10,718 bases of DNA from Methylophaga sp. Lineage in GTDB: Bacteria > Pseudomonadota > Gammaproteobacteria > Nitrosococcales > Methylophagaceae. Made by a program: the position numbers and the translations under genes. The stretch covers positions 1-10,718 of the forward strand of contig JABURN010000240.1 in assembly GCA_014762585.1 (NCBI GenBank), in the 5' to 3' direction. The notes beneath the pieces are model-generated. The model made no database searches, was not told the DNA's origin, and saw nothing but the letters and a program-made list of their open reading frames with translations. Positions within the stretch are counted from its first letter, which is position 1. Every line of letters starts with the position of its first letter. Of this stretch, positions 1 to 10,718 are shown piece by piece.

Positions 1-1
1 C

Positions 2-2509
2 CTGAACAGCCACAAAGTGACTATCTACGCTGATAACTGGCTGGAAGAGTCGGTATACCTGGAATCCCTGACCGGCCATATCAGTTGGCAGCATCAGCAG
101 AATAACTGGCATGTCTCGGCTGAACAGCTGAACCTGTGGAATGAAGACCTGAACCTCAGTCTCAACGGCCGCGTGAATCACCATAACGGCAAGACCGATA
201 CGGATCTGAGGCTGGCATTAGAGGATATACAGACCAATCGCTGGCGTGATTATGTGCCCAAATCAATCATCCCGGAAGATTTTGAGAAATGGTCCAGAGA
301 TGCTTTCAGGAAGGGCATTATTCGTTCCGGCTATGTCGAGTTTAAGGGAGACCCGAGCGCATTTCCTTTTGATGAAAACCCCGACCAGGGCAGTTTTGAC
401 ATGAAGCTGCAGGTGGAAGACACCCAGCTGCACTATGCTGAAGGCTGGCCTGATCTTATGGCGGTTGATGGTACAGTCAGCGGTCAGGGAAATAACCTTC
501 TGATTCAAAGTCAAAATGGCAGTATCGCCGGATTTGTATTTAGCGAGGTGACGACCACCATCTCCAATCTGGTCAGGCCAAACCCGATACTGCGAGTCGA
601 TGGTACCCTGACAGGCACGACGGCTGATGCGCTGTCGTTTCTGCAGAACAGTCCTTTGAGTAAACGCTTTGGTTCAGTGGCAGAATGGATTGAAGTCAGT
701 GGTAACAGCAATATCAAGCTGGATCTGATGGTGCCGCTGGTCGACCCCAACCAGACCGAAGCCTCCGGATACGTCACTTTCGCTGACAGTGGGCTTCAAT
801 CCAAGACACTGCCGGATTTGACTATCAGCCAGATTAACGGCCAGCTCAATTTCAGCAACGATGGTGTCGAGGCAGAGACCATTAACGCGGTGATGCTCAA
901 TCAGCCGATAGTAGTTGATGTTGTGCCGGATGCAGAACAAACCCGGGTGGAAATCAATGGCAGTGTGGCGATAAAAGACTTACGCGATCTCTGGCCACAC
1001 CAGATCCCGGATTTTGTCACTGGGGAAACCGATTATCTGGCCGAACTGATGGTTGAAGAGCCGCAGGAAGGTCAGTTTGAGGTCGCTGTGAACATCGAAA
1101 GTGATCTGTTTGGCGTCACGATTGACGCACCAGCGCCACTGGGCAAAACAGCCAGACAACGTCATGCTGCAGAACTACAGATTGACACCAGTGAGCAGAC
1201 GGCTTTTCGTTTCAGCCTGGATGAGTGGCTGAAGGCAGCGCTGACCCTGGAGAATGACAAGCCACGCGGTCAGATCATGTTGGGCGGTGATATGCCGACA
1301 TTGAACGCCAGCGGACTTGAATTAGGCGGTCGGCTGGAGAGTCTGGATCTCAATGCCTGGATGGACTGGCAGGCAGGACGCAGCAGGATCAACACCGAGA
1401 GTGCAGTGGTGGATGCAGTGGATCTCTTTATCGGTGAACTCAAAATTGCCGAGCAGACATTGAATCAGCTGCAGTTATCAGCCAGCCAGTCACGCGATCA
1501 GTGGCAAATCCAACTGGCTTCTTCGAAAGTCAGAGGCAGTATCAGTCTGCCGTCACCGATCAGCAATGAGCGGCCTTTAGTCGTCGCACTGGATCACCTG
1601 GACCTTAGCCTGCCTGAGAATGACACGACGCCGAGGACGCAGGTTAAAGCAGAGTTATGGCCGCCGATGAGGCTGGATATCAGGGAGCTCGTACTCAATG
1701 GGATGCAACTGGGCCAGTTCAATTTGCGGGCAAATCGTGTTGCAGATAGCTGGAAGGTGGAATCGGCTAGTCTCACTTCACCGGTGTTGCAGGCATCTCT
1801 GACAGGCAGTTGGATTCAGTCAGCGACAGGCAGTCGCAGTGAATTTGATATCGACGCCTCCAGCGATGATTTGCGGGCTTTACTGGCATATTACGGTTAT
1901 CAGGAAGTGATTGAAGCCAGGCAGGTGCAGCTGAACACCCAGCTCAGCTGGCCCGGAGACCCGACCGCTTTTTCTGTGGCGAGAATGCAGGGCGACATGG
2001 AACTCTCAGTGGGGCGCGGCAGCTTACTGGAAGTTGAGCCGGGAGCGGCAGGTCGTATTTTCGGTTTGTTGAGTATTGCCGCAATTCCGCGGCGCCTGGC
2101 GCTGGATTTCAGTGACCTGTTCGGCAAGGGCTTTGATTTCAGCGGGATTAACGGTCAGTTTCAATTCAGTAATGGCATTGCCCGCACTGATAATCTCACT
2201 ATGCAGGGTGATTCGGCACTGATTGAAGTGTCAGGGCCCACGGATATGGTGGCAAAAACCTACGACCAGATTGTTAAGATCACACCCAAGGTGTCTTCAG
2301 CTTTACCCCTGGCAGGGGCGGTCGCCGGTGGACCTGTGGGGCTGGGGGTCGGCACTGCGATTCTACTGTTCGATAAGATTGCCGGACAGGTGTTTGATCG
2401 TGAAATCGTCGATCTCATCAGCTACAGTTATAAGCTGACCGGTCCCTGGAATAACCCTCGACTCAATGTGGTGGGGCCGGAGCCGGAACAAGGTCAGGCT
2501 ACCCCTTAA
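2..2509 (+). CDS. yhdP: YhdP family AsmA-like envelope protein, C-terminal part (5' truncated by window edge)
   Basis: The reading frame is open from base 2 to the TAA at 2507-2509. The GTG at 17 has five open codons before it and is not a credible start, so the gene begins outside the window. About 835 residues are visible; E. coli YhdP is roughly 1260, so the N-terminal membrane anchor is missing here. The visible part is repetitive and beta-rich, with many alternating polar/hydrophobic segments, as in AsmA/TamB-type bridge proteins. The last 165 residues carry the most family-specific stretch ([20 protein letters not shown], then [16 protein letters not shown]). They also include a Gly/Ala-rich hydrophobic segment about 760-785 residues after position 17 and a final [11 protein letters not shown] motif. 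In E. coli, YhdP, TamB and YdbH have redundant roles in phospholipid transport to the outer membrane. The neighbour tldD is the same as in E. coli, which supports the call. The family assignment is firm; the function is by homology. Confidence 0.9.
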
Positions 2510-2553
2510 TCTGCTATCATATTGGCTTTATAGCTACAGCAATTCTTGAGTTG

Positions 2554-3996
2554 ATGAAAGCATCTATTTCCGAACAAGTTCAACAGCAACTACTGCTGCC
2601 TGCCGGCCTGACCGAGCAGGATCTGGAAAACGCACTGAGCGCCACCATGACCGGTGGTGTCGACTATGCCGATCTGTATTTTCAGCAGTCACGCCAGGAA
2701 AACTGGGTGCTGGAGGATGGCATCATTAAAGATGGTGGTTACCATCTGGAGCAGGGCGTCGGGGTTCGCGCCTGCAGTGGTGAGAAAACCGGCTTTGCCT
2801 ATTCTGATGACCTTGTTCTGCCAGCCCTTCAGCAGGCAGCCAGGGCCGCGCAGGCTATTTCCCGTCAGGGACAGGAACAGCAGGTCGCAGTCTGGAAACG
2901 TCAGACCTCACCGGTTTTGTATTCCAGCCAGGACCCGATTCTGGCGCTGAGCGTTGATGAAAAGCTCGCCTTATTACGTGAAGCCGATGCGGCTGCCCGT
3001 AAAGCTGACTCTCGCGTCAAGCAGGTCAATGTCAGCCTTGCCGGTGAACTCGACAGTGTGCTGATTGCTGCCAGTGATGGTACCTACAGCAGCGATATCC
3101 GGCCGCTGATTCGGATGAATGTCAGTGTGATTGTCGAGAGCAATGGCCGACGCGAGCGTGGCAGTGCCGGTGGTGGTCGTAGAATGGATTACCGTTATTT
3201 CCGGGATAACAATCTGGCCCAGGCCTACGCCCGCGAGGCGGTGCGTATCGCGCTGGTCAACCTGGAAGCCGTAGCCGCGCCCGCTGGTACCATGCCGGTG
3301 GTATTGGGTAGTGGCTGGCCAGGCGTGTTGCTGCATGAAGCGGTGGGTCACGGTCTGGAAGGTGATTTTAACCGTCGTGGCACCTCGACTTTCTCCGGCA
3401 AAATGGGGGAACAGGTGGCGTCGCCGCTGTGCACTGTGGTTGATGACGGCACTCTGGAATTCAGACGCGGTTCGCTGAATATTGATGACGAAGGTGAAGC
3501 CACCCAATACACGACCTTGATCGATAAAGGCCGCCTGGTTGGCTACATGCAGGATAAGCACAATGCCCGTCTGATGGGAACCAAAAGCACTGGTAACGGC
3601 CGCCGTGAATCCTATGCCCATCTGCCGATGCCACGAATGACCAATACCTACATGCTGCCCGGTGATCACAAGGCTGAAGAAATTATTGCTTCGGTCGACA
3701 GAGGCATTTATGCCGTCAATTTCGGTGGCGGTCAGGTCGATATCACCTCGGGTAAGTTCGTGTTTTCAACCAGCGAAGCCTATCTGATTGAGAACGGTAA
3801 AATTACGACCCCGGTGAAAGGGGCAACGCTGATCGGCAACGGACCGGAAGTGATGCAGCGTATTTCGCTGGTCGCTGATGATCTTGAACTCGACAGTGGT
3901 GTCGGTAACTGTGGCAAAGAAGGCCAGAGCGTCCCGGTCGGTGTCGGCCAACCTACACTAAAAGTTGATGCCTTAACCGTAGGCGGAACAGCTTAG
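2554..3996 (+). CDS. tldD: TldD, metalloprotease subunit of TldD/TldE (PmbA)
   Basis: The 480-residue product is close to full length for TldD and matches the E. coli protein along its whole length as I remember it. It contains the zinc-site motif [11 protein letters not shown] at residues 261-271. It also has the N-terminal segment [11 protein letters not shown], the block [20 protein letters not shown], and the C-terminal end [20 protein letters not shown]...TVGGTA. In enterobacteria TldD acts with TldE/PmbA as a cytoplasmic protease that unfolds and degrades peptides, matures microcin B17 precursor and degrades the antitoxin CcdA. TldE is not in this window. A TTG at 2551 directly precedes the ATG at 2554. 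I chose the ATG because it is the stronger codon, although the upstream GAG (2548-2550) is a poor and very close ribosome binding site for either. The gap to yhdP is 44 bp with no clear terminator, so co-transcription is plausible. Confidence 0.96.
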
Positions 3997-4008
3997 ATTT
4001 AAAACATT

Positions 4009-5061
4009 ATGACAAAGCAACACAAAGCGGTCGCCCTGATTTCCGGCGGCCTGGATTCCATGCTGGCAGTTCGTGTGCTGCAGGAGCAGGGCATTGAAGT
4101 TGAGGGCATTAACTTCTATACCGGTTTCTGCGTTGAAGGCCATACGCACGCGATTCGCAATCATGACAAAGAGAAACAGAAACGCAACAATGCGCTCTGG
4201 GTAGCCGAACAACTTGGCATCAAGCTGCATATTGTTGATGTGATTGAAGAGTACAAGGATGTGCTGCTCAACCCCAAACATGGCTACGGCGCCAACATGA
4301 ACCCTTGCCTGGACTGCAAGATTTTCATGGTGGGCAAAGCGGTCGAGTGGGTTAAAGAACATCACAAGGATGGTTTCGATTTTATCGTGACCGGCGAGGT
4401 TATCGGACAGCGACCGATGTCGCAGCGAAAATTCACCATGCCGATTATCTCTGAAGAGTCAGGCGCTGATGACTTGCTGTTGCGCCCACTGTGCGCGAAG
4501 AACCTGCCGGAAACCAAGCCCGAACGCGAGGGCTGGGTTGACCGCGAGAAGCTATATGACTTCCATGGTCGTAACCGGAAACCGCAAATTGCCCTCGCCA
4601 AACAGTTCGGTCTGCATGATTTTGCGTCTCCGGCGGGTGGCTGCTGTTTCCTCACCGACAAGAGCTACTCGGACAAACTGGTCGACTTATGGCAGGCCCG
4701 CAACAGTCGCGAATATGAGCTTGATGACATCATGCTGCTGAAAGTGGGCCGTCATATCCGCCCAAGTGACGAGTTTAAGCTGATCATCGCACGCGATGCC
4801 GGCGAGAGTAAGTTTCTGGAAGGTTATCGCAAGCAATACACCAGTCTTCATGCGCTTAGCCACAATGGCCCGATGGCACTGGTTGACGGCGAGCTCAAAC
4901 AGGAACAATATCCACTCGCTGCCGCTATTGTGGCGCGTTTCGGTAAAGGCCGCAGTGCTGAAGAAGTGGAAATCGATATCGCGACACCCGATCAGCAAAG
5001 GCAGCAGATTAAAACAGCGCCGCTCAGTGCTGATGAAGTGCTGCAGGAGTGGTACGTATGA
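4009..5061 (+). CDS. PP-loop (ThiI/MnmA-like) thiolase with C-terminal NFACT-R-like region, predicted RNA sulfur-modification enzyme
   Basis: The 350-residue protein starts with a PP-loop ATP-pyrophosphatase signature, SGGLDS at residues 12-17. This is the motif by which thiouridylases (MnmA, ThiI, TtcA) adenylate a substrate before adding sulfur. A CxxC pair (C100, C103, in NPCLDCKIFM) follows, then TGEVIGQRPMSQ (128-139), a conserved-looking second-half segment of the ATPase domain. A Cys-Cys pair lies in SPAGGCCFLTD (C212, C213). Residues about 240-325 (KVGRHIRPSDEFKLIIARDA, then HNGPMALVDGE and FGKGRSAEEVEI) resemble the NFACT-R RNA-binding region. I see no methyltransferase motif, so annotations of relatives as 2-thiouridylate methyltransferases are probably inherited errors. 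The gene begins 12 bp after tldD with no clear Shine-Dalgarno sequence. It overlaps the TusA-like gene by 4 bp, which suggests that this carrier supplies the sulfur. The PP-loop call is firm; the RNA target is unknown. Confidence 0.82.
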   Translation: MTKQHKAVALISGGLDSMLAVRVLQEQGIEVEGINFYTGFCVEGHTHAIRNHDKEKQKRNNALWVAEQLGIKLHIVDVIEEYKDVLLNPKHGYGANMNPCLDCKIFMVGKAVEWVKEHHKDGFDFIVTGEVIGQRPMSQRKFTMPIISEESGADDLLLRPLCAKNLPETKPEREGWVDREKLYDFHGRNRKPQIALAKQFGLHDFASPAGGCCFLTDKSYSDKLVDLWQARNSREYELDDIMLLKVGRHIRPSDEFKLIIARDAGESKFLEGYRKQYTSLHALSHNGPMALVDGELKQEQYPLAAAIVARFGKGRSAEEVEIDIATPDQQRQQIKTAPLSADEVLQEWYV

Positions 5062-5285
5062 GCCGTCAGCAACTGGATGCGCGACGCATGCTCTGCCCGA
5101 TGCCTGTGATCAAGACGCAGAACCAGGTGGCAGCCATGCAGGTTGGTGATGAAGTTGAGGTTATTTGCACTGACCCCGGTGCATTAAATGATATTCCGGC
5201 CTGGGCCCGAATCAACGGTCACAGTGTGATCGACACGGTTCAGGATGAGGATGAGATTCGAATTACGGTTCGTGTTGGTGCATAG
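5058..5285 (+). CDS. TusA/SirA-family sulfur-carrier protein
   Basis: The small protein has 75 residues. Its N-terminal LDARRMLCPMPVIKTQ matches the TusA-family CPxP motif, with the sulfur-carrying cysteine at C13. The rest fits the usual two-layer alpha/beta fold: a VGDEVEVICTDPGALNDIPAW segment, then a short acidic stretch and a final beta strand. Members accept persulfide sulfur from a cysteine desulfurase and hand it to thiolation or sulfur-oxidation enzymes. I chose the ATG at 5058 because an AGGAG at 5045-5049 lies 8 nt upstream. The in-frame GTG at 5049 would overlap that ribosome binding site. The ATG overlaps the TGA of the PP-loop gene (ATGA), which indicates translational coupling and a dedicated partnership. 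I give no gene symbol because this is probably a paralogue and not the canonical tusA that feeds MnmA. Confidence 0.88.
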   Translation: MSRQQLDARRMLCPMPVIKTQNQVAAMQVGDEVEVICTDPGALNDIPAWARINGHSVIDTVQDEDEIRITVRVGA

Positions 5286-5321
5286 CACCAAAATGATCCA
5301 TTGGTGTGTTTAAACGCACCA
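5275..5321 (+). repeat. Nested GGTGC/GCACC inverted repeats spanning the tusA-like stop codon
   Basis: Three overlapping inverted repeats share arms. TTGGTGCATAGCACCAA (5275-5291) is a perfect 7+3+7 palindrome that contains the TAG stop of the TusA-like gene. The arm GCACCAA (5285-5291) can instead pair with TTGGTGT (5301-5307). TGGTGTGTTTAAACGCACCA (5302-5321) is a near-perfect 20-bp palindrome whose right arm is part of the first NtrC-like site. In RNA these would be mutually exclusive hairpins. None is followed by a proper T-run, so a weak or Rho-dependent 3' end is the most that can be claimed. In DNA they are extra half-sites of the NtrC type in non-standard spacing. Confidence 0.6.
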
Positions 5322-5331
5322 GAATAGTGCT
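5315..5331 (+). promoter_or_regulatory. NtrC-like binding site 1 upstream of glnA
   Basis: CGCACCAGAATAGTGCT matches 11 of the 14 defined positions of the enterobacterial NtrC consensus TGCACCA-N3-TGGTGCA. Its centre (5323) lies about 87 bp upstream of the start predicted from the sigma54 element at 5383-5399. The centre of the second site is 32 bp further downstream, i.e. about three helical turns, which is the spacing I know from the E. coli glnA enhancer. Both the match and the position next to glnA support the call. Confidence 0.72.
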
Positions 5332-5346
5332 ATTGTTAGGTGCGCT

Positions 5347-5363
5347 TGCACCTAAATGGTTGA
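5347..5363 (+). promoter_or_regulatory. NtrC-like binding site 2 upstream of glnA
   Basis: TGCACCTAAATGGTTGA matches 11 of 14 defined positions of TGCACCA-N3-TGGTGCA, with a perfect left half and a weaker right half. It is centred at 5355, about 55 bp upstream of the predicted start. The left half is also the right arm of AGGTGC-GCTT-GCACCT (5338-5353), an inverted repeat in the opposite orientation, so the exact protein contact could be read either way. Confidence 0.65.
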
Positions 5364-5382
5364 TTTATCGTAACAGTTAAAG

Positions 5383-5399
5383 TTGGCGTGATTTCTGCT
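5383..5399 (+). promoter_or_regulatory. Sigma54 (-24/-12) promoter of glnA
   Basis: TTGGCGTGATTTCTGCT fits the sigma54 pattern TGGCAC-N5-TTGCW. The GG at 5385-5386 and the GC at 5397-5398 are exactly 12 bp apart, as required. TGGC is intact at -24 and TGCT at -12; the mismatches are in the less constrained positions. The predicted start is near 5410, giving a 53-nt leader. With the two NtrC-like sites upstream this makes glnA a nitrogen-limitation-activated gene. I saw no convincing sigma70 promoter in the same interval. Confidence 0.78.
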
Positions 5400-5420
5400 G
5401 TACTATGTCGCGAGTTTTTT

Positions 5421-5438
5421 TGCACAACGCAATGTGCA
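5421..5438 (+). other. Inverted repeat in the glnA leader
   Basis: TGCACA-N6-TGTGCA is a perfect 6-bp inverted repeat just downstream of the predicted start and directly after a run of seven T (5415-5421). In RNA it would be a small hairpin 14 nt ahead of the GGAG ribosome binding site (5452-5455). As DNA it resembles an NtrC site with one base too many in the centre. Neither role can be decided from sequence. Confidence 0.45.
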
Positions 5439-5462
5439 GTTTCTAAAAATTGGAGAAGTTAA

Positions 5463-6872
5463 ATGTCTGTCGAAAATGTGCTTCAAATGATCAAAGATGA
5501 GGACGTCAAGTTTGTTGACTTCCGTTTCACCGATACGCGTGGTAAAGAGCAACACGTTTCTTATCCTGCGCACTCTATTGATGAAGATACCTTCACAGAA
5601 GGCGCAATGTTCGACGGTTCTTCTGTTGCCGGTTGGAAAGGCATCAACGAATCAGACATGATTCTGATGCCCGATCCTGAAACTGCGGTCATGGACCCGT
5701 TCATGGATGACAACACGCTGATCATTCGTTGTGACATCGTTGAGCCTGCGACCATGCAAGGCTACGAACGTGACCCACGCAGCGTGGCCAAACGCGCTGA
5801 AGCATATCTGGAATCAACCGGTCTGGCTGATACCGCTTTCTTCGGTCCAGAACCAGAATTCTTTATTCTGGATGACGTTCGCTGGGGCAGCGATATTTCA
5901 GGTTCTTTCTACAAAGTGGATTCTGATGAATCTTCATGGAACACTGAAAAAGTCTTCCCCGATGGCAACATGGGTCACCGTCCTAAAGTTAAAGGTGGTT
6001 ACTTCCCGGTTCCTCCCGTTGACTCACTGCAAGATATCCGCTCTGCCATGTGTCTGACTATGGAAGAAATGGGTCTGGAGACTGAAGTTCATCACCACGA
6101 AGTTGCGACTGCAGGTCAGTGCGAAATCGGTGTTAAATTCAACACCCTGGTGAAAAAAGCCGACGAAGTGCAAATCCTGAAATACGTTGTTCATAACGTG
6201 GCTCATGCTTATGGCAAAACAGCGACTTTCATGCCGAAACCACTGGTTGGTGATAACGGTAGTGGTATGCACGTTCACCAATCTATTTCTAAAGGTAGTG
6301 AAAACCTGTTCTCCGGTAACAAATATGGCGGCCTGTCTGAAACTGCGCTGTACTACATCGGCGGTATCATCAAACATGCCCGCGCCCTGAACGCGTTCAC
6401 TAACTCTTCTACCAACAGCTACAAACGTCTGATTCCGGGTTTTGAAGCACCTGTTATGCTGGCCTACTCAGCCCGTAACCGCTCAGCTTCTATCCGTATT
6501 CCATACGTCAGCAACCCGAAAGCTCGTCGTATCGAAGTACGCTTCCCTGATCCGTCTGCTAACCCATACCTGGCATTCTCTGCCATGCTGATGGCTGGTC
6601 TGGACGGTATCCAGAACAAGATCCACCCTGGCGATGCCATGGATAAAGACTTGTACGACCTGCCAGCCGAAGAAGCAGCGGAAATCCCAACCGTATGCCA
6701 CTCTCTGGATATGGCGCTGGAAGCGCTTGATGCCGACCGTGCCTTCCTGACTGAAGGTGGTGTATTCACCGACGATATGATCGACGGTTACATCGCGTTG
6801 AAGATGGAAGAAGTGACTCGTCTGCGTATGGAAACTCACCCGGCTGAATACGACCTGTACTACAGCGTCTAA
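5463..6872 (+). CDS. glnA: Glutamine synthetase, type I (GlnA)
   Basis: The enzyme makes glutamine from glutamate, ammonia and ATP, and is the main ammonium-assimilation step. The product has 469 residues, the same length as the E. coli enzyme. Visible signatures include FDGSS at 50-54, the metal-site motif FFGPEPEFF (E130, E132), and the block [10 protein letters not shown] (265-274). NRSASIRIP (339-347) and [14 protein letters not shown] (357-370) are also present. Y398, in [10 protein letters not shown], corresponds to the adenylylated tyrosine (Y397 in E. coli), so this is the adenylylation-regulated beta form. GGAG at 5452-5455 lies 7 nt before the ATG. Expression is expected from the sigma54 promoter at 5383-5399 with NtrC sites upstream, and ends at a strong terminator at 6900-6926. 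No oddity is seen in the coding sequence. Confidence 0.99.
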
Positions 6873-6899
6873 TCCAGTCGAGTTTGATGTCGACAACAG

Positions 6900-6926
6900 A
6901 AAAAGCGCCCTTGCGGCGCTTTTTTT
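6900..6926 (+). terminator. Rho-independent terminator of glnA
   Basis: An A-run and GCGCC (6900-6909) pair with GGCGC followed by seven T (6915-6926) across a CTTGC loop. It lies 28 bp after the glnA stop. The A-run on the left makes the structure close to symmetrical, so it could also stop transcription from the other strand. It separates glnA from the downstream gene and suggests ntrBC needs its own promoter. Confidence 0.92.
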
Positions 6927-6961
6927 GTGTCTGACAGTTGCGCCGAGGGCTGCTTCGTCCT

Positions 6962-7567
6962 ATGCTTCAGATTATGAGATTCGCCGCTTTATTGATGTTG
7001 CTATTCCTGTTGCCGGTTCACGCGGAAATTTATCGCTGGGTCGATGACAGTGGTAACGTCGTGTTTTCCGACGAGCCTCAACCCGGTGCAGAAAGAGTTG
7101 ATCTGCCTCCGACCACCACATACACCCCGGTCGATGAAGAAGCTGCCACAAATGAGATTCTCAAGCTATCACCTGAGGATGAAGATGAGGCGCAGCAACA
7201 GGATGTGCCTGACTATCAAATCCGTATTGTTGCTCCTGCCAATGATGAGAGCATCTGGGTCAACAACGGTGATGTCACGGTAAGTATGATTGTGGAACCT
7301 AACCTGGATGCGGAGCGTGGTGATCAGGTCATACTGCGGTTAGACGGTGAACCTGTCTCTGAACCCCGAAACTCAACGACTTTTCAACTCAATAACCTCA
7401 GCCGCGGCACACATAGTCTTAATGCCACGGTTGTTGACAGTAACGGCGTGGCCCTGACCAGCACGGGGACTGTCACATTCCATCTTCATCGCGCTTCCAT
7501 TCAAAACAACACTGGTCTGACGCCGCCTGGCCCTACCGGTGGTGCCCCGACACCCAGCAATAATTGA
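6962..7567 (+). CDS. Secreted DUF4124 domain protein between glnA and ntrB
   Basis: The 201-residue product opens with a signal peptide: a hydrophobic core (FAALLMLLFLLP), then a likely cleavage site VHA|E after residue 21. The mature N-terminus, EIYRWVDDSGNVVFSDEP (22-39), is the typical DUF4124 motif. A Pro/Thr and acidic linker (about 45-82) follows. Next is a beta-rich Ig-like region (about 85-177, with LRLDGE and LSRGTHSLNATVVDSNG) and a Pro/Gly-rich tail. I infer a periplasmic location; the molecular function is unknown. A protein of this kind is commonly found between glnA and ntrBC in gammaproteobacteria, as I recall. I chose the ATG at 6962 because it gives a standard signal peptide; a GAGGG at 6945-6949 lies 12 nt upstream. 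The ATG at 6974 and the TTG at 6938 are alternatives. It starts 35 bp after the glnA terminator with no obvious promoter of its own. Confidence 0.85.
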   Translation: MLQIMRFAALLMLLFLLPVHAEIYRWVDDSGNVVFSDEPQPGAERVDLPPTTTYTPVDEEAATNEILKLSPEDEDEAQQQDVPDYQIRIVAPANDESIWVNNGDVTVSMIVEPNLDAERGDQVILRLDGEPVSEPRNSTTFQLNNLSRGTHSLNATVVDSNGVALTSTGTVTFHLHRASIQNNTGLTPPGPTGGAPTPSNN

Positions 7568-7584
7568 TGCACCTTATTGGTGCG
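7568..7584 (+). promoter_or_regulatory. NtrC-like binding site upstream of ntrBC
   Basis: TGCACCTTATTGGTGCG matches 12 of 14 defined positions of TGCACCA-N3-TGGTGCA, the best NtrC-like site in the window. It begins immediately after the stop codon of the DUF4124 gene. It covers or abuts the -35 position of the extended -10 promoter at 7602-7610, which would suit NtrC repression of ntrBC as known for E. coli glnLG. It could also be the 3' hairpin of the upstream gene, but no T-run follows. Confidence 0.75.
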
Positions 7585-7601
7585 TTAAAACCCTGTTTAA
7601 A

Positions 7602-7610
7602 TGCTATATT
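7602..7610 (+). promoter_or_regulatory. Probable extended -10 sigma70 promoter of ntrBC
   Basis: TGCTATATT is a TGn-TATAAT-type extended -10 with one mismatch in the hexamer. No good -35 is seen at 16-18 bp; the best match (TTGGTG, 7578-7583) is 21 bp away and lies inside the NtrC-like site. The predicted start is near 7617, giving a leader of about 125 nt before ntrB. Confidence 0.5.
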
Positions 7611-7627
7611 GCTTCTTTCATCAGCGG

Positions 7628-7665
7628 CAAACTTGCTAGTGCACGATAGGTTCTAAGCGAGTTTG
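7628..7665 (+). other. Leader hairpin upstream of ntrB
   Basis: CAAACTTGCT (7628-7637) can pair with AGCGAGTTTG (7656-7665) over 10 bp with one G-U pair and an 18-nt loop. It lies about 11 nt after the start predicted from the extended -10. No T-run follows, so it is not a terminator. Its role is unknown; a stabilising or regulatory leader element is possible. Confidence 0.4.
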
Positions 7666-7712
7666 ACCAACAATCAACAGCTTACCGGCCAGTTGGCAGA
7701 AAACACCATTAA

Positions 7713-7729
7713 GTGGAGCGTTTTTTGCT
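7713..7729 (+). promoter_or_regulatory. Possible sigma54 (-24/-12) element at the ntrB start
   Basis: GTGGAGCGTTTTTTGCT has GG (7715-7716) and GC (7727-7728) exactly 12 bp apart and a perfect TTGCT at -12. The -24 half (TGGAGC) is weaker. The predicted start would be near 7740, one base before the first ATG of ntrB, so the mRNA would be leaderless or translated from the ATG at 7762. The fit could be chance. Confidence 0.35.
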
Positions 7730-7740
7730 AACAGCTGACC

Positions 7741-8817
7741 ATGTATATGAGTGTCACCACAATGAGTCACGATGCCATTGCCAGTAATGATGTGCTGGAA
7801 AACCTGACAACTGCCGTTCTGGTTCTGGATACGTCCTTACGCGTTTGTTATATCAACACGGCCACTGAAATTTTATTTGAAATAAGCCAGCGTCAGGCTG
7901 AGCATATCCCATTGCAGACACTTCTCCCGGGAGAAAAGCGACTGCTGAACTCACTCAGAAGAGTCGTCTCGACCGGGCAAGCATTGATAGAGCGTGAGGT
8001 GCGCTTATTCTTACCTGCAAGTGGTGAGATCCTGGCTGACTGTTCGGTCAAAATGCTGGATGTCGACGAGCCTTATCTTATTCTTGAACTGGCACAGCTG
8101 GATTATCAGCAACGCATCAACCGTGATGAAAATCTGCATACTCAGCAACAGGTTGTTCGCGGTCTGGCGCATGAAATCAAGAATCCTCTGGGTGGCTTGC
8201 GTGGCGCTGCACAATTACTGGAACGACAGCTCGACTCAGAAGATCTCAAAGAATACACACGCATCATCATTGCCGAAGCGGATCGCCTGCAGAATCTGAT
8301 GAACCGGATGCTGGGTCCGAATCAGCATCCGGAAAAGCGCGATACCAATATTCACGAAGTTCTGCAGCATGTGAGACAACTGGTTGATATCGAAGTCGAT
8401 GAAAGGCTCAAGTTCAAAATTGACTATGATCCGAGCATTCCCGAACTCTATGCCGACTTTGATCAGCTGATTCAGATCTTTCTCAATATCGTGCGAAACG
8501 CGGTACAGGCGATGAATGGTGTCGGCCTGATTACATTACGTACCCGTATACAACGCAACATCACTATCGAAAAGCATTATCACCGCCTGGGCGTTCTGGT
8601 TGAAATTGAGGATAACGGCCCCGGCATACCCAAACCATTACAAGATAGTCTGTTCTATCCCCTGGTCACTGGACGTGCTGATGGCACCGGTCTGGGACTT
8701 TATCTGGTGCAGAACCTGGTCCAGAGAAATGGCGGTACAGTGTCGTGCAACAGCCATCCGGGACAGACAATTTTCTCAGTTACATTTCCCCTGGAGTTAA
8801 CACGTGAACGCCACTAA
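7741..8817 (+). CDS. glnL: NtrB (GlnL), nitrogen sensor histidine kinase/phosphatase
   Basis: The 358-residue protein has the NtrB layout. An N-terminal PAS domain (about 15-120, TAVLVLDTSLRVCYIN) comes first, then the dimerisation and phosphotransfer helix with H144 in GLAHEIKNPLGGLRGAAQLL. The ATP-binding domain follows, with N-box N253 (NIVRNAVQAM), G1 box DNGPGIP (291-297) and G2 box GTGLGL (315-320). It is cytoplasmic, with no membrane segment. In the known system it phosphorylates NtrC when nitrogen is low, and the PII protein turns it into a phosphatase when nitrogen is plentiful. The start is uncertain: an in-frame TAA at 7729 bounds it, and ATGs at 7741, 7747 and 7762 all lack a good ribosome binding site. 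I used the first. The end overlaps ntrC by 14 bp. Confidence 0.95.
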   Translation: MYMSVTTMSHDAIASNDVLENLTTAVLVLDTSLRVCYINTATEILFEISQRQAEHIPLQTLLPGEKRLLNSLRRVVSTGQALIEREVRLFLPASGEILADCSVKMLDVDEPYLILELAQLDYQQRINRDENLHTQQQVVRGLAHEIKNPLGGLRGAAQLLERQLDSEDLKEYTRIIIAEADRLQNLMNRMLGPNQHPEKRDTNIHEVLQHVRQLVDIEVDERLKFKIDYDPSIPELYADFDQLIQIFLNIVRNAVQAMNGVGLITLRTRIQRNITIEKHYHRLGVLVEIEDNGPGIPKPLQDSLFYPLVTGRADGTGLGLYLVQNLVQRNGGTVSCNSHPGQTIFSVTFPLELTRERH

Positions 8818-10210
8818 AGCGATAGCCTGGATAGTCGACGATGACCGATCCATTCGATGGGTCTTGCAGAAAGCATTGGAAGCGGTAGATATCACGGTTC
8901 GGGCCTTTGAAACAGCTGACGTTGTATTACATGAATTAAAGCAGGGTCGTGAACAGGCACCTGATGTACTGATCAGCGATATCAGAATGCCCGGCATAGA
9001 CGGCCTGCAGTTATTGTCCGAAATCAAACAACGGCATCCGGAGCTGCCGGTGATCATCATGACCGCCTATTCCGATTTGGACAGTGCGGTGTCTGTCTAT
9101 GAAGGTGGGGCCTTCGAGTACCTGCCCAAACCTTTTGATGTCGATGAGGCCGTCGAGCTTGTCCAGCGTGCAGTCGCACACAGCAGGGAACAGGAAAAAA
9201 GCCCGGCCGAGGACTTTAATCTCGGCGCCGAGATTGTCGGTGAAGCACCTGCCATGCAGGAAGTGTTCAGAGCGATAGGCCGTCTGGCACGCTCCAATAT
9301 CACGGTGCTGATTAATGGCGAATCCGGTACCGGTAAGGAACTGGTGGCTCAGGCCTTACATCGTCACAGTCCACGACGCCAGTCGCCGTTTATTGCTTTA
9401 AACATGGCAGCCATCCCCAAGGAGTTGCTGGAATCCGAGCTGTTTGGCCATGAAAAAGGCGCCTTTACCGGTGCCCACGTACAGCGTAAAGGCCGTTTCG
9501 AGCAAGCCAATGGCGGTACGCTGTTTCTGGATGAAATCGGTGACATGCCGATTGAGTTACAGACCCGTTTGCTGCGTGTGCTGTCTGACGGGGAATTCTT
9601 CCGGGTCGGCGGCCATAGTGGCGTCAAAGTCGATGTTCGCATTATCGCGGCAACGCACCAGAACCTGGAAAAACTGGTTGAGCGCGGTGACTTCAGGGAA
9701 GATTTGTTTCATCGCCTCAATGTTATCCGGATTCATATTCCATCCCTGCGTGAGCGACGCGAGGATATCCCGGCGCTGGTCGCTTATTTCCTGAATAAGG
9801 CAGCCAAGGAACTCAATATGGCGACCAAAAGCGTGTCGCCCGATGTGGAAAGCTACCTGTCACAGTTACCCTGGCCCGGTAATGTCAGGCAACTGGAAAA
9901 CACCTGCCGCTGGCTGACAGTGATGTCACCGGGGCAGGTAGTACAGATGGACGACCTGCCGGTGGAACTCTCTGCTGAGAGTGCTGAGGGGGGCAGCCGC
10001 CAGGGCAGTGACTGGCAGCAATTGTTCCGCCAATGGGCAGCGAATAAGGCCTTGAGTGGGCAAGAGGGGGCGCTAGCTGATGTTGTACCCCTGATCGAGC
10101 AGTTATTGATGGAAGTCGCATTGGAAAAAACTGCCGGCAAGAGACAGGAAGCAGCCAAGCTTCTAGGTTGGGGTAGAAATACGCTGACAAGAAAGTTAAA
10201 AGAAAATTAG
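8804..10210 (+). CDS. glnG: NtrC (GlnG), sigma54-dependent response regulator
   Basis: The 468-residue protein is nearly the length of E. coli NtrC (469). The receiver domain (about 5-125) has the acidic pocket DDD at 12-14, phosphoacceptor D59 in LISDIRMPGIDG, T87 and K109. The AAA+ domain (about 143-380) has Walker A GESGTGKE (172-179), the sigma54-contact loop GAFTGA (219-224) and Walker B GGTLFLDEIGD (237-247). The C-terminal Fis-type helix-turn-helix (about 445-466, KRQEAAKLLGWGRNTLTRKL) binds the enhancer. All residues needed for a working activator are present. The start is GTG at 8804, backed by GGAG at 8793-8796, 7 nt upstream. The NtrC-like sites at 5315, 5347 and 7568 are its likely local targets. 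No T-run terminator follows; the tRNA promoter begins 9 bp after the stop. Confidence 0.97.
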   Translation: MNATKAIAWIVDDDRSIRWVLQKALEAVDITVRAFETADVVLHELKQGREQAPDVLISDIRMPGIDGLQLLSEIKQRHPELPVIIMTAYSDLDSAVSVYEGGAFEYLPKPFDVDEAVELVQRAVAHSREQEKSPAEDFNLGAEIVGEAPAMQEVFRAIGRLARSNITVLINGESGTGKELVAQALHRHSPRRQSPFIALNMAAIPKELLESELFGHEKGAFTGAHVQRKGRFEQANGGTLFLDEIGDMPIELQTRLLRVLSDGEFFRVGGHSGVKVDVRIIAATHQNLEKLVERGDFREDLFHRLNVIRIHIPSLRERREDIPALVAYFLNKAAKELNMATKSVSPDVESYLSQLPWPGNVRQLENTCRWLTVMSPGQVVQMDDLPVELSAESAEGGSRQGSDWQQLFRQWAANKALSGQEGALADVVPLIEQLLMEVALEKTAGKRQEAAKLLGWGRNTLTRKLKEN

Positions 10211-10218
10211 AAATCGCC

Positions 10219-10247
10219 TTGCATGCCCCCAGGGGGCTATGTATAAT
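10219..10247 (+). promoter_or_regulatory. Sigma70 promoter of the initiator tRNA gene
   Basis: The -35 TTGCAT (10219-10224) and a perfect -10 TATAAT (10242-10247) are 17 bp apart. The predicted start is near 10254, about 10 nt before the mature tRNA. The stretch after the -10 is GC-rich (GCGCAG), as in stringently controlled stable-RNA promoters. Confidence 0.9.
10225..10237 (+). repeat. GC palindrome in the tRNA promoter spacer
   Basis: GCCCCCAGGGGGC is a perfect palindrome around one A and fills most of the spacer between -35 and -10. It may act as an operator, as the 3' hairpin of the ntrC transcript (no T-run follows), or simply as a rigid spacer. Confidence 0.55.
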
Positions 10248-10263
10248 GCGCAGTCTAATCAGG

Positions 10264-10340
<77 letters not shown>

Positions 10341-10353
10341 ACTCTGATTGCAG

Positions 10354-10392
10354 AAGGCTCAAAACAAATTAACGTTGTTTTGAGCCTTTTTT
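10354..10392 (+). terminator. Rho-independent terminator of the tRNA gene
   Basis: A perfect 14-bp stem (10354-10367 with 10375-10388; core GGCTCAAAACAA) has a 7-nt loop. Six T in all follow the stem core GAGCC (10387-10392), the first two of them paired. It begins 14 nt after the tRNA. On the other strand the stem is not followed by a T-run, so it is a poor terminator for the convergent minus-strand gene. Confidence 0.93.
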
Positions 10393-10400
10393 ATTGCCTG

Positions 10401-10718
10401 TCAGTAAATTGTGCCGTAGCGCTTAACAGCCTCGCTTTCAGTGATAAAGCTGGCGTTGAGCAGTTCCCAGCGCTGACCACTATCCATCACGATGTTGCAG
10501 CCCAATGCCAGTTTATGCCCATTTTTCAGGGCGAACATTGAGCGACCCGGTTGTCTGACTTCAGCAAAGTAGCGGTCCAGTTGCAGGTCAATAATTCTGT
10601 CCGGGTGCTTGTTGATAACCGATATCCTCAGGCCGCCCCTCTGATTACAGTCCGTGCTGCTATCAGCGTCAGGCTCCTCAATAAACTGGATATATGTCTC
10701 CGCATTACCCCTGTCTCT
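10401..10718 (-). CDS. Unidentified protein, C-terminal 105 residues (5' end beyond window)
   Basis: On the minus strand a frame runs open from the right window edge to a TGA at 10401-10403, giving 105 residues with no start inside except late internal ATGs. The visible part includes acidic EEPDADSSTDCN, then RISVINKHPDRIIDLQLDRY. It ends with SMFALKNGHKLALGCNIV and QRWELLNASFITESEAVKRY. I do not recognise a family. There are two cysteines and no membrane segment. Coding is likely because the frame is uninterrupted, the composition is protein-like, and the gene ends cleanly just past the tRNA terminator in convergent orientation. An uninterrupted frame of this length could still occur by chance. 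Confidence 0.6.
   Translation of the reverse strand, partial: RDRGNAETYIQFIEEPDADSSTDCNQRGGLRISVINKHPDRIIDLQLDRYFAEVRQPGRSMFALKNGHKLALGCNIVMDSGQRWELLNASFITESEAVKRYGTIY

Follow-up and report, generated by a model that had tools for sequence, protein, structure and literature searches.

The window analysed here, a 10,718-nucleotide stretch of DNA from Methylophaga sp. (NCBI GenBank assembly GCA_014762585.1, contig JABURN010000240.1, positions 1 to 10,718), carries two overlapping genes, one encoding a 350-amino-acid (aa) protein that joins a PP-loop domain to an NFACT-R_2 domain and the other a TusA-type sulfur carrier. A first-pass annotation, made from the sequence alone, had proposed that this pair thiolates an RNA at some site other than those served by MnmA, ThiI and TtcA, and had listed an SGGLDS motif, C100/C103, a C212/C213 pair, a CPxP carrier, an ATGA overlap and an AGGAG site, each of which was recovered where it had been placed (Table 1). 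Its label 'thiolase' is a misnomer, sulfurtransferase being meant. Here we consider the pair as a putative source of 4-thiouridine (s4U) in tRNA.

Table 1. Features of the PP-loop/NFACT-R_2 and tusA-type gene pair in the window.
Feature	Position	Strand	Basis
Putative tRNA 4-thiouridine synthase (PP-loop/NFACT-R_2 protein of 350 aa)	4009..5061	+	Pfam PF03054, PF02568, PF18297
SGGLDS PP-loop motif, residues 12-17	4042..4059	+	invariant in 22/22 aligned sequences
C100-x-x-C103	4306..4317	+	both invariant in 22/22 and in two Fusobacteriota proteins; C103 faces MnmA cysteine
TGEVIGQRPMSQ, residues 128-139, like ThiI TGEALGQVSSQ	4390..4425	+	profile alignment with ThiI L038
C212-C213, C213 the invariant third cysteine	4642..4647	+	C213 faces cysteines of MnmA and ThiI
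NFACT-R_2 domain, residues 247-349	4747..5055	+	E 3.9e-35, profile 1-104 of 104
AGGAG, ribosome-binding-site-like, 8 nt before tusA ATG	5045..5049	+	read from sequence
TusA-type sulfur carrier, 75 aa, start overlaps preceding stop as ATGA (5058-5061)	5058..5285	+	PF01206, 82.4 bits
CPMP (CPxP) motif of TusA-type carrier	5094..5105	+	read from sequence

A Pfam scan places the PP-loop domain at the N-terminus of the 350-aa protein (PF03054, 47.5 bits; PF02568, 33.2 bits) and NFACT-R_2 at the C-terminus (PF18297, 120.6 bits). The resemblance to NFACT-R that the first-pass annotation had seen in this C-terminal region was thereby borne out as a match to the full profile, and not to another fold. 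Scanning to E 1 gave no match to THUMP or N-terminal ferredoxin-like domains, both of which were found in the ThiI used for comparison (L038), and the scan gave no match to NFACT-N. Assignment to ThiI failed (33 bits against the NCBIfam TIGR00342 cut-off of 264.5), as did assignment to MnmA (48.7 bits against the NCBIfam MnmA equivalog cut-off of 236.95). By its lack of a THUMP match and its ThiI score, the protein is not a member of ThiI, but it most likely works like one. The carrier clears the PF01206 cut-off of 28.6 bits with ease, whereas it scores 42.9 bits against the NCBIfam TusA equivalog cut-off of 78 and so fails as a canonical TusA. A fold search with the AF2 model of the 350-aa protein (pLDDT 86, pTM 0.80) matched MnmA, ThiI, TtuA and YcfA, along with two structures that we take to be NFACT proteins, S. 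suis FBPS in its C-terminal region (5h3w) and an RqcH complex (8s1u chain H). Since whole-chain TM-scores to these last two are low (0.23-0.40 by query), the NFACT-R identity rests mainly on the Pfam match, with the fold search as indirect support. The NFACT-R domain of RqcH/NEMF, which belongs to the same named superfamily and binds RNA, is there part of another fusion.

Profile alignment with ThiI covers the PP-loop core over 167 columns at 33% identity and reveals TGExxGQ-SQ and LRPL motifs common to both, where the compared MnmA carries TGHYAR in place of the former. C213 lies near the end of the PP-loop domain, opposite the catalytic cysteine of ThiI, and both C103 and C213 stand opposite cysteines of MnmA, with which the protein also has in common the PP-loop core and supply by a TusA. 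C100, C103 and C213 are invariant in all 22 aligned family sequences, the window's protein included, and are kept in two Fusobacteriota proteins of 35-38% identity, whilst C212 and C41 are not invariant. The CC pair is present as first described, but not as a paired feature: C212 is missing in three relatives (L135, L154 and L155), which led us to reject a functional dithiol, and only one of the two cysteines looks essential. The review PMC8584467 describes a CxxC-C set as a mark of iron-sulfur (Fe-S) dependent tRNA sulfurtransferases, among them Thermus MnmA, and attributes s4U chemistry with a CxxC-bound cluster to a ThiI of Methanococcus. The window protein differs from this Methanococcus enzyme in having no THUMP match. 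Its invariant CxxC...C triad suggests that C100, C103 and C213 hold an Fe-S centre.

The fusion recurs beyond chance. A homology search gave at least 8000 candidates matching at E <= 1e-5, and NFACT-R_2 is carried by 120 of 120 among the matches listed; the nearest named relatives come from Methylophaga. Gene order was read at loci from two genome samples, one of the class Gammaproteobacteria (276 genomes) and one of the phylum Pseudomonadota (249 genomes), and at 80 loci from named genomes. A TusA-type gene follows directly downstream in 97 of 110 loci (30 from the class sample, the window's own included, plus the 80 named loci) and lies within ~0.8 kb in 23 of 28 readable phylum-sample loci, 25 of which are outside the class and encode proteins that share, where aligned, 51-57% identity with that of the window. 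Conservation of the gene pair, which had been suggested as a check, thus holds widely. A 4-base ATGA-type overlap is the commonest spacing in relatives (27 of 58 placed starts), and translational coupling of the two genes appears plausible. More distant relatives occur in Fusobacteriota (L153, L154 and L155 from Fusobacterium vincentii, F. animalis and Haliovirga abyssi, 35.7-37.3% identical), with no TusA gene beside the two annotated genes of the family there. Outside the phylum one large record was tested, that of F. vincentii, which carries a plasmid label but at 2.1 Mb resembles a chromosome; the family is present in it, and the only other match to the ThiI profile is an MnmA-like protein. 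Phage carriage of the family was rejected, with a single partial match at 31.6%.

Database names suggest a different function. Full-length Legionella relatives (P0139, P0146 and P0230) are called tRNA (5-methylaminomethyl-2-thiouridylate)-methyltransferase at source, and such MnmA/TrmU or MnmA-type methyltransferase names, together with a best PP-loop score to the MnmA-type PF03054, would fit an additional MnmA or TtcA with s2U34 or s2C32 as its product. We regard this as hardly credible and rejected it, since the source genome, 85.7% complete, encodes both elsewhere: a true MnmA (468.5 bits; 444.2 bits to the NCBIfam equivalog model that the window protein misses by far) and a TtcA (488.6 bits). 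The window protein moreover has NFACT-R in place of the MnmA C-terminal part. Two further TusA-like genes lie elsewhere in the genome, one scoring 56.3 bits, again below the TusA equivalog cut-off, so that the pair is not the sole mnmA/tusA equivalent. One of them (L002:1026-1725) overlaps a DsrE2 sulfur-carrier gene (254.4 bits), and the other (L003) adjoins cysH-like and cysD-like genes. Of mnmA, thiI and ttcA, which the first-pass annotation had proposed to look for elsewhere in the genome, thiI is the exception: no ThiI was found in the incomplete source genome, where the Pfam ThiI profile matches the window protein alone, and no full ThiI was found in a genome of the same genus (G143) or one of the same family (G002), each 99% complete and each carrying both the PP-loop/NFACT-R_2 family and DUF1722.

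We therefore compared the distributions of the NFACT-R_2 family, ThiI and DUF1722, the last taken as a stand-in for RudS (two matches were checked for the TudS domain, both positive). The class sample contains the family in 141 genomes and ThiI in 20, with none carrying both; DUF1722 is present in 77, of which 67 have the family and 10 ThiI, as against 0 of 115 genomes with neither. The phylum sample gave the family in 34 genomes, ThiI in 82 and both in none, with DUF1722 in 69 (16 with the family, 53 with ThiI, none with neither). Pooled, after removal of 16 shared genomes (an overlap inferred from handle numbers), the 509 Pseudomonadota genomes include 172 with the family, 98 with ThiI and 0 with both, and DUF1722 in 143 (83 and 60, respectively, and 0 of 239 with neither). 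DUF1722 is thus confined to genomes with the NFACT-R_2 family or ThiI. The pooled p-values for the two patterns, 1.2e-20 and 1.2e-50, are inflated by shared ancestry, many of the genomes being related. Among the 115 'neither' genomes, 59 or more (picked by eye, hence a lower bound) reach a size of 2.5 Mb, and none of these has DUF1722. TtcA-like genes served as a control and show no exclusion, being present in 123 of the 141 class genomes with the family, 17 of the 20 with ThiI and 83 of the 115 with neither, which also speaks against a second TtcA.

Several choices define these counts. Genome sets were compiled by hand from search tables. Family membership means a match to the NFACT-R_2 profile, and a PP-loop frame was read at 30 of 30 class loci, the window's own included, and at 28 of 29 phylum loci, L147 giving none. 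One degraded 60-aa frame, in G028, was counted as a member; in this 1.4-Mb genome the family is reduced to that frame with a stop, whilst the same-genus genomes G157 and G250 keep the whole gene, a recent loss of the family. ThiI in the class sample takes in two genomes that fall slightly short of the cut-off (G239, 253.8 bits; G144, 246.5 bits), whilst in the phylum sample only genomes above it were counted and G483 (85.8 bits, with stops) was excluded. Seven class-sample DUF1722 matches are weak, and dropping them leaves 60 + 10, none outside; five phylum-sample genomes have DUF1722 only below 50 bits (G292, G304, G330, G371 and G375), all of them ThiI genomes. TtcA-like means a best E below 1e-50, with 134 of the 276 class genomes passing the curated cut-off.

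These distributions bear on the position first proposed. A distinct enzyme branch with its own RNA-binding domain might favour a new RNA target outside the reach of MnmA, ThiI and TtcA, such as a different site in tRNA, or the rRNA around the A-site finger, which is where RqcH has its NFACT-R. If so, the family should be distributed independently of ThiI. Instead, none of the 509 genomes carries both, and DUF1722 is restricted to those with one or the other, and we consider a new target unlikely. Of the original proposal, the analysis supports an RNA-directed sulfurtransferase with a dedicated TusA and does not support a site beyond those of MnmA, ThiI and TtcA, given that no ThiI was found in the three genomes above, that the two do not co-occur in the survey and that DUF1722 tracks both.

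Both patterns hold when relatedness is reduced. With the class sample collapsed to 157 taxonomic families, 79 have the NFACT-R_2 family, 16 have ThiI and 0 have both, and the 58 with DUF1722 all fall among these, with 0 of 62 without either (p 5.8e-6 and 1.2e-17). Within 11 mixed taxonomic families, DUF1722 occurs in 8 of 12 enzyme-bearing members as compared to 0 of 15 others. LarE and the PP-loop enzyme YcfA thiolate non-RNA targets, a cofactor or a free base. A similar non-RNA target for the window protein, with the exclusion and DUF1722 patterns arising from shared ancestry, would agree with the presence of YcfA among the fold matches and with the CxxC-C set of LarE homologues (PMC8584467), but the match to NFACT-R_2 in 22 of 22 aligned sequences and the persistence of the patterns at and within the level of taxonomic families make it very improbable.

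Taken together, this analysis suggests, with a probability of roughly 0.8, that the PP-loop/NFACT-R_2 protein is a tRNA s4U synthase, most likely acting at U8, that replaces ThiI. The product is likely ThiI's own s4U because the two enzymes do not co-occur and DUF1722 tracks both alike, and the position U8 is taken from ThiI and RudS. In the proposed mechanism, a cysteine desulfurase would load sulfur onto the TusA-type carrier encoded by the overlapping next gene, and the NFACT-R domain would bind tRNA in place of ThiI's NFLD-THUMP, whilst the PP-loop domain would adenylate uridine O4. The carrier would then hand its sulfur to the site around C213, where the three cysteines C100, C103 and C213 probably bind a labile Fe-S centre, and this site would transfer it to the uridine; in many species RudS could remove it later. 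The protein shares with ThiI the PP-loop core, the motifs and the cysteine near the end of that core, and its genomic distribution is complementary to that of ThiI. It differs in having no THUMP, ThiI ferredoxin-like domain or rhodanese, and instead NFACT-R, an extra CxxC and a separate TusA, which would replace the rhodanese relay.

The modification s4U8 is found widely in tRNA and serves as a sensor of near-UV light, yet ThiI, the enzyme credited with making it, is lacking in many bacteria. Burroughs and Aravind (RNA Biol, 2014) are said to have predicted a tRNA 4-thiouridylation pathway from the PP-loop/NFACT-R fusion and its TusA neighbour. To our knowledge neither the ThiI exclusion nor the RudS link appears there, and both are a new addition to that domain-based prediction. 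Our literature search, with most subscription papers outside its coverage, turned up neither a comparable substitute for ThiI nor an experimental test or a connection with RudS. RudS strips sulfur from s4U in tRNA, and 637 of 884 RudS genomes have ThiI, according to PMC11417400; for two groups of RudS genomes without ThiI, its authors propose either another ThiI architecture or no s4U. Each of the 143 DUF1722 genomes in our survey has ThiI or the NFACT-R_2 family. We find it somewhat probable that, counted by taxonomic family (79 against 16 of the 157 sampled), s4U in Gammaproteobacteria is made more often by a ThiI-independent s4U8 pathway, with NFACT-R for THUMP, a dedicated TusA for rhodanese and an Fe-S centre for a bare persulfide, and that this pathway supplies the RudS substrate in some, if not all, of the organisms without ThiI that the RudS study left unexplained. 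If true, the pair may explain how ThiI-less bacteria make the s4U that many can also remove, and database entries naming the protein MnmA/TrmU would need correction.

Several observations weigh against a ThiI replacement. DUF1722 is absent from 74 of the 141 class genomes with the family (as from 10 of the 20 with ThiI) and was not matched in the source genome at its 85.7% completeness; 13 of the 110 loci have no adjacent TusA gene, three of these being contig ends, and 5 of the 28 phylum-sample loci have none nearby. None of these contradicts the proposed s4U synthase. The inflation of the pooled p-values has to be added, as has the near-tie in hhalign (67.9 for ThiI and 64.6 for MnmA) and the higher Pfam score of the window protein as MnmA-type (47.5 against 33.2). 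The CxxC-C set is also borne by most LarE homologues, according to PMC8584467, and the literature search turned up no measured activity for the PP-loop/NFACT-R_2 family. Finally, PMC11417400 reports, by PhyloCorrelate, that 94% of DUF1722 species encode ThiI, as compared to 60 of 143 in our survey; this gap may stem from ThiI having been defined more loosely there, because the Pfam ThiI profile also matches NFACT-R_2 family proteins.

Around the pair, tldD lies upstream and a glutamine synthetase gene downstream. Scans of positions 2400-5600 gave 3 promoter-like sites, compared with 2.8 for shuffled sequence, and 7 terminator-like sites, again compared with 2.8, six of the seven being on the minus strand; the sole plus-strand site falls within the PP-loop gene, and none follows the pair. 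With two DUF1722-bearing frames as queries, no match to RudS was found in the 80 named neighbourhoods. Downstream of the pair, 41 of these 80 loci have a gene for a cation-efflux (CDF) transporter (for example L052:5311-6492, L056:5462-6607 and L076:5348-6502), two scanned members being PF01545 with a ZT_dimer domain, and a PP-loop-TusA-metal efflux operon is possible. Beyond the glutamine synthetase gene of the window, a DUF4124 protein is encoded at 6938-7567, followed by a histidine kinase (7741-8817) and a sigma-54 response regulator (8804-10210), an order of synthetase, kinase and regulator that is presumably the usual glnA-ntrB-ntrC.
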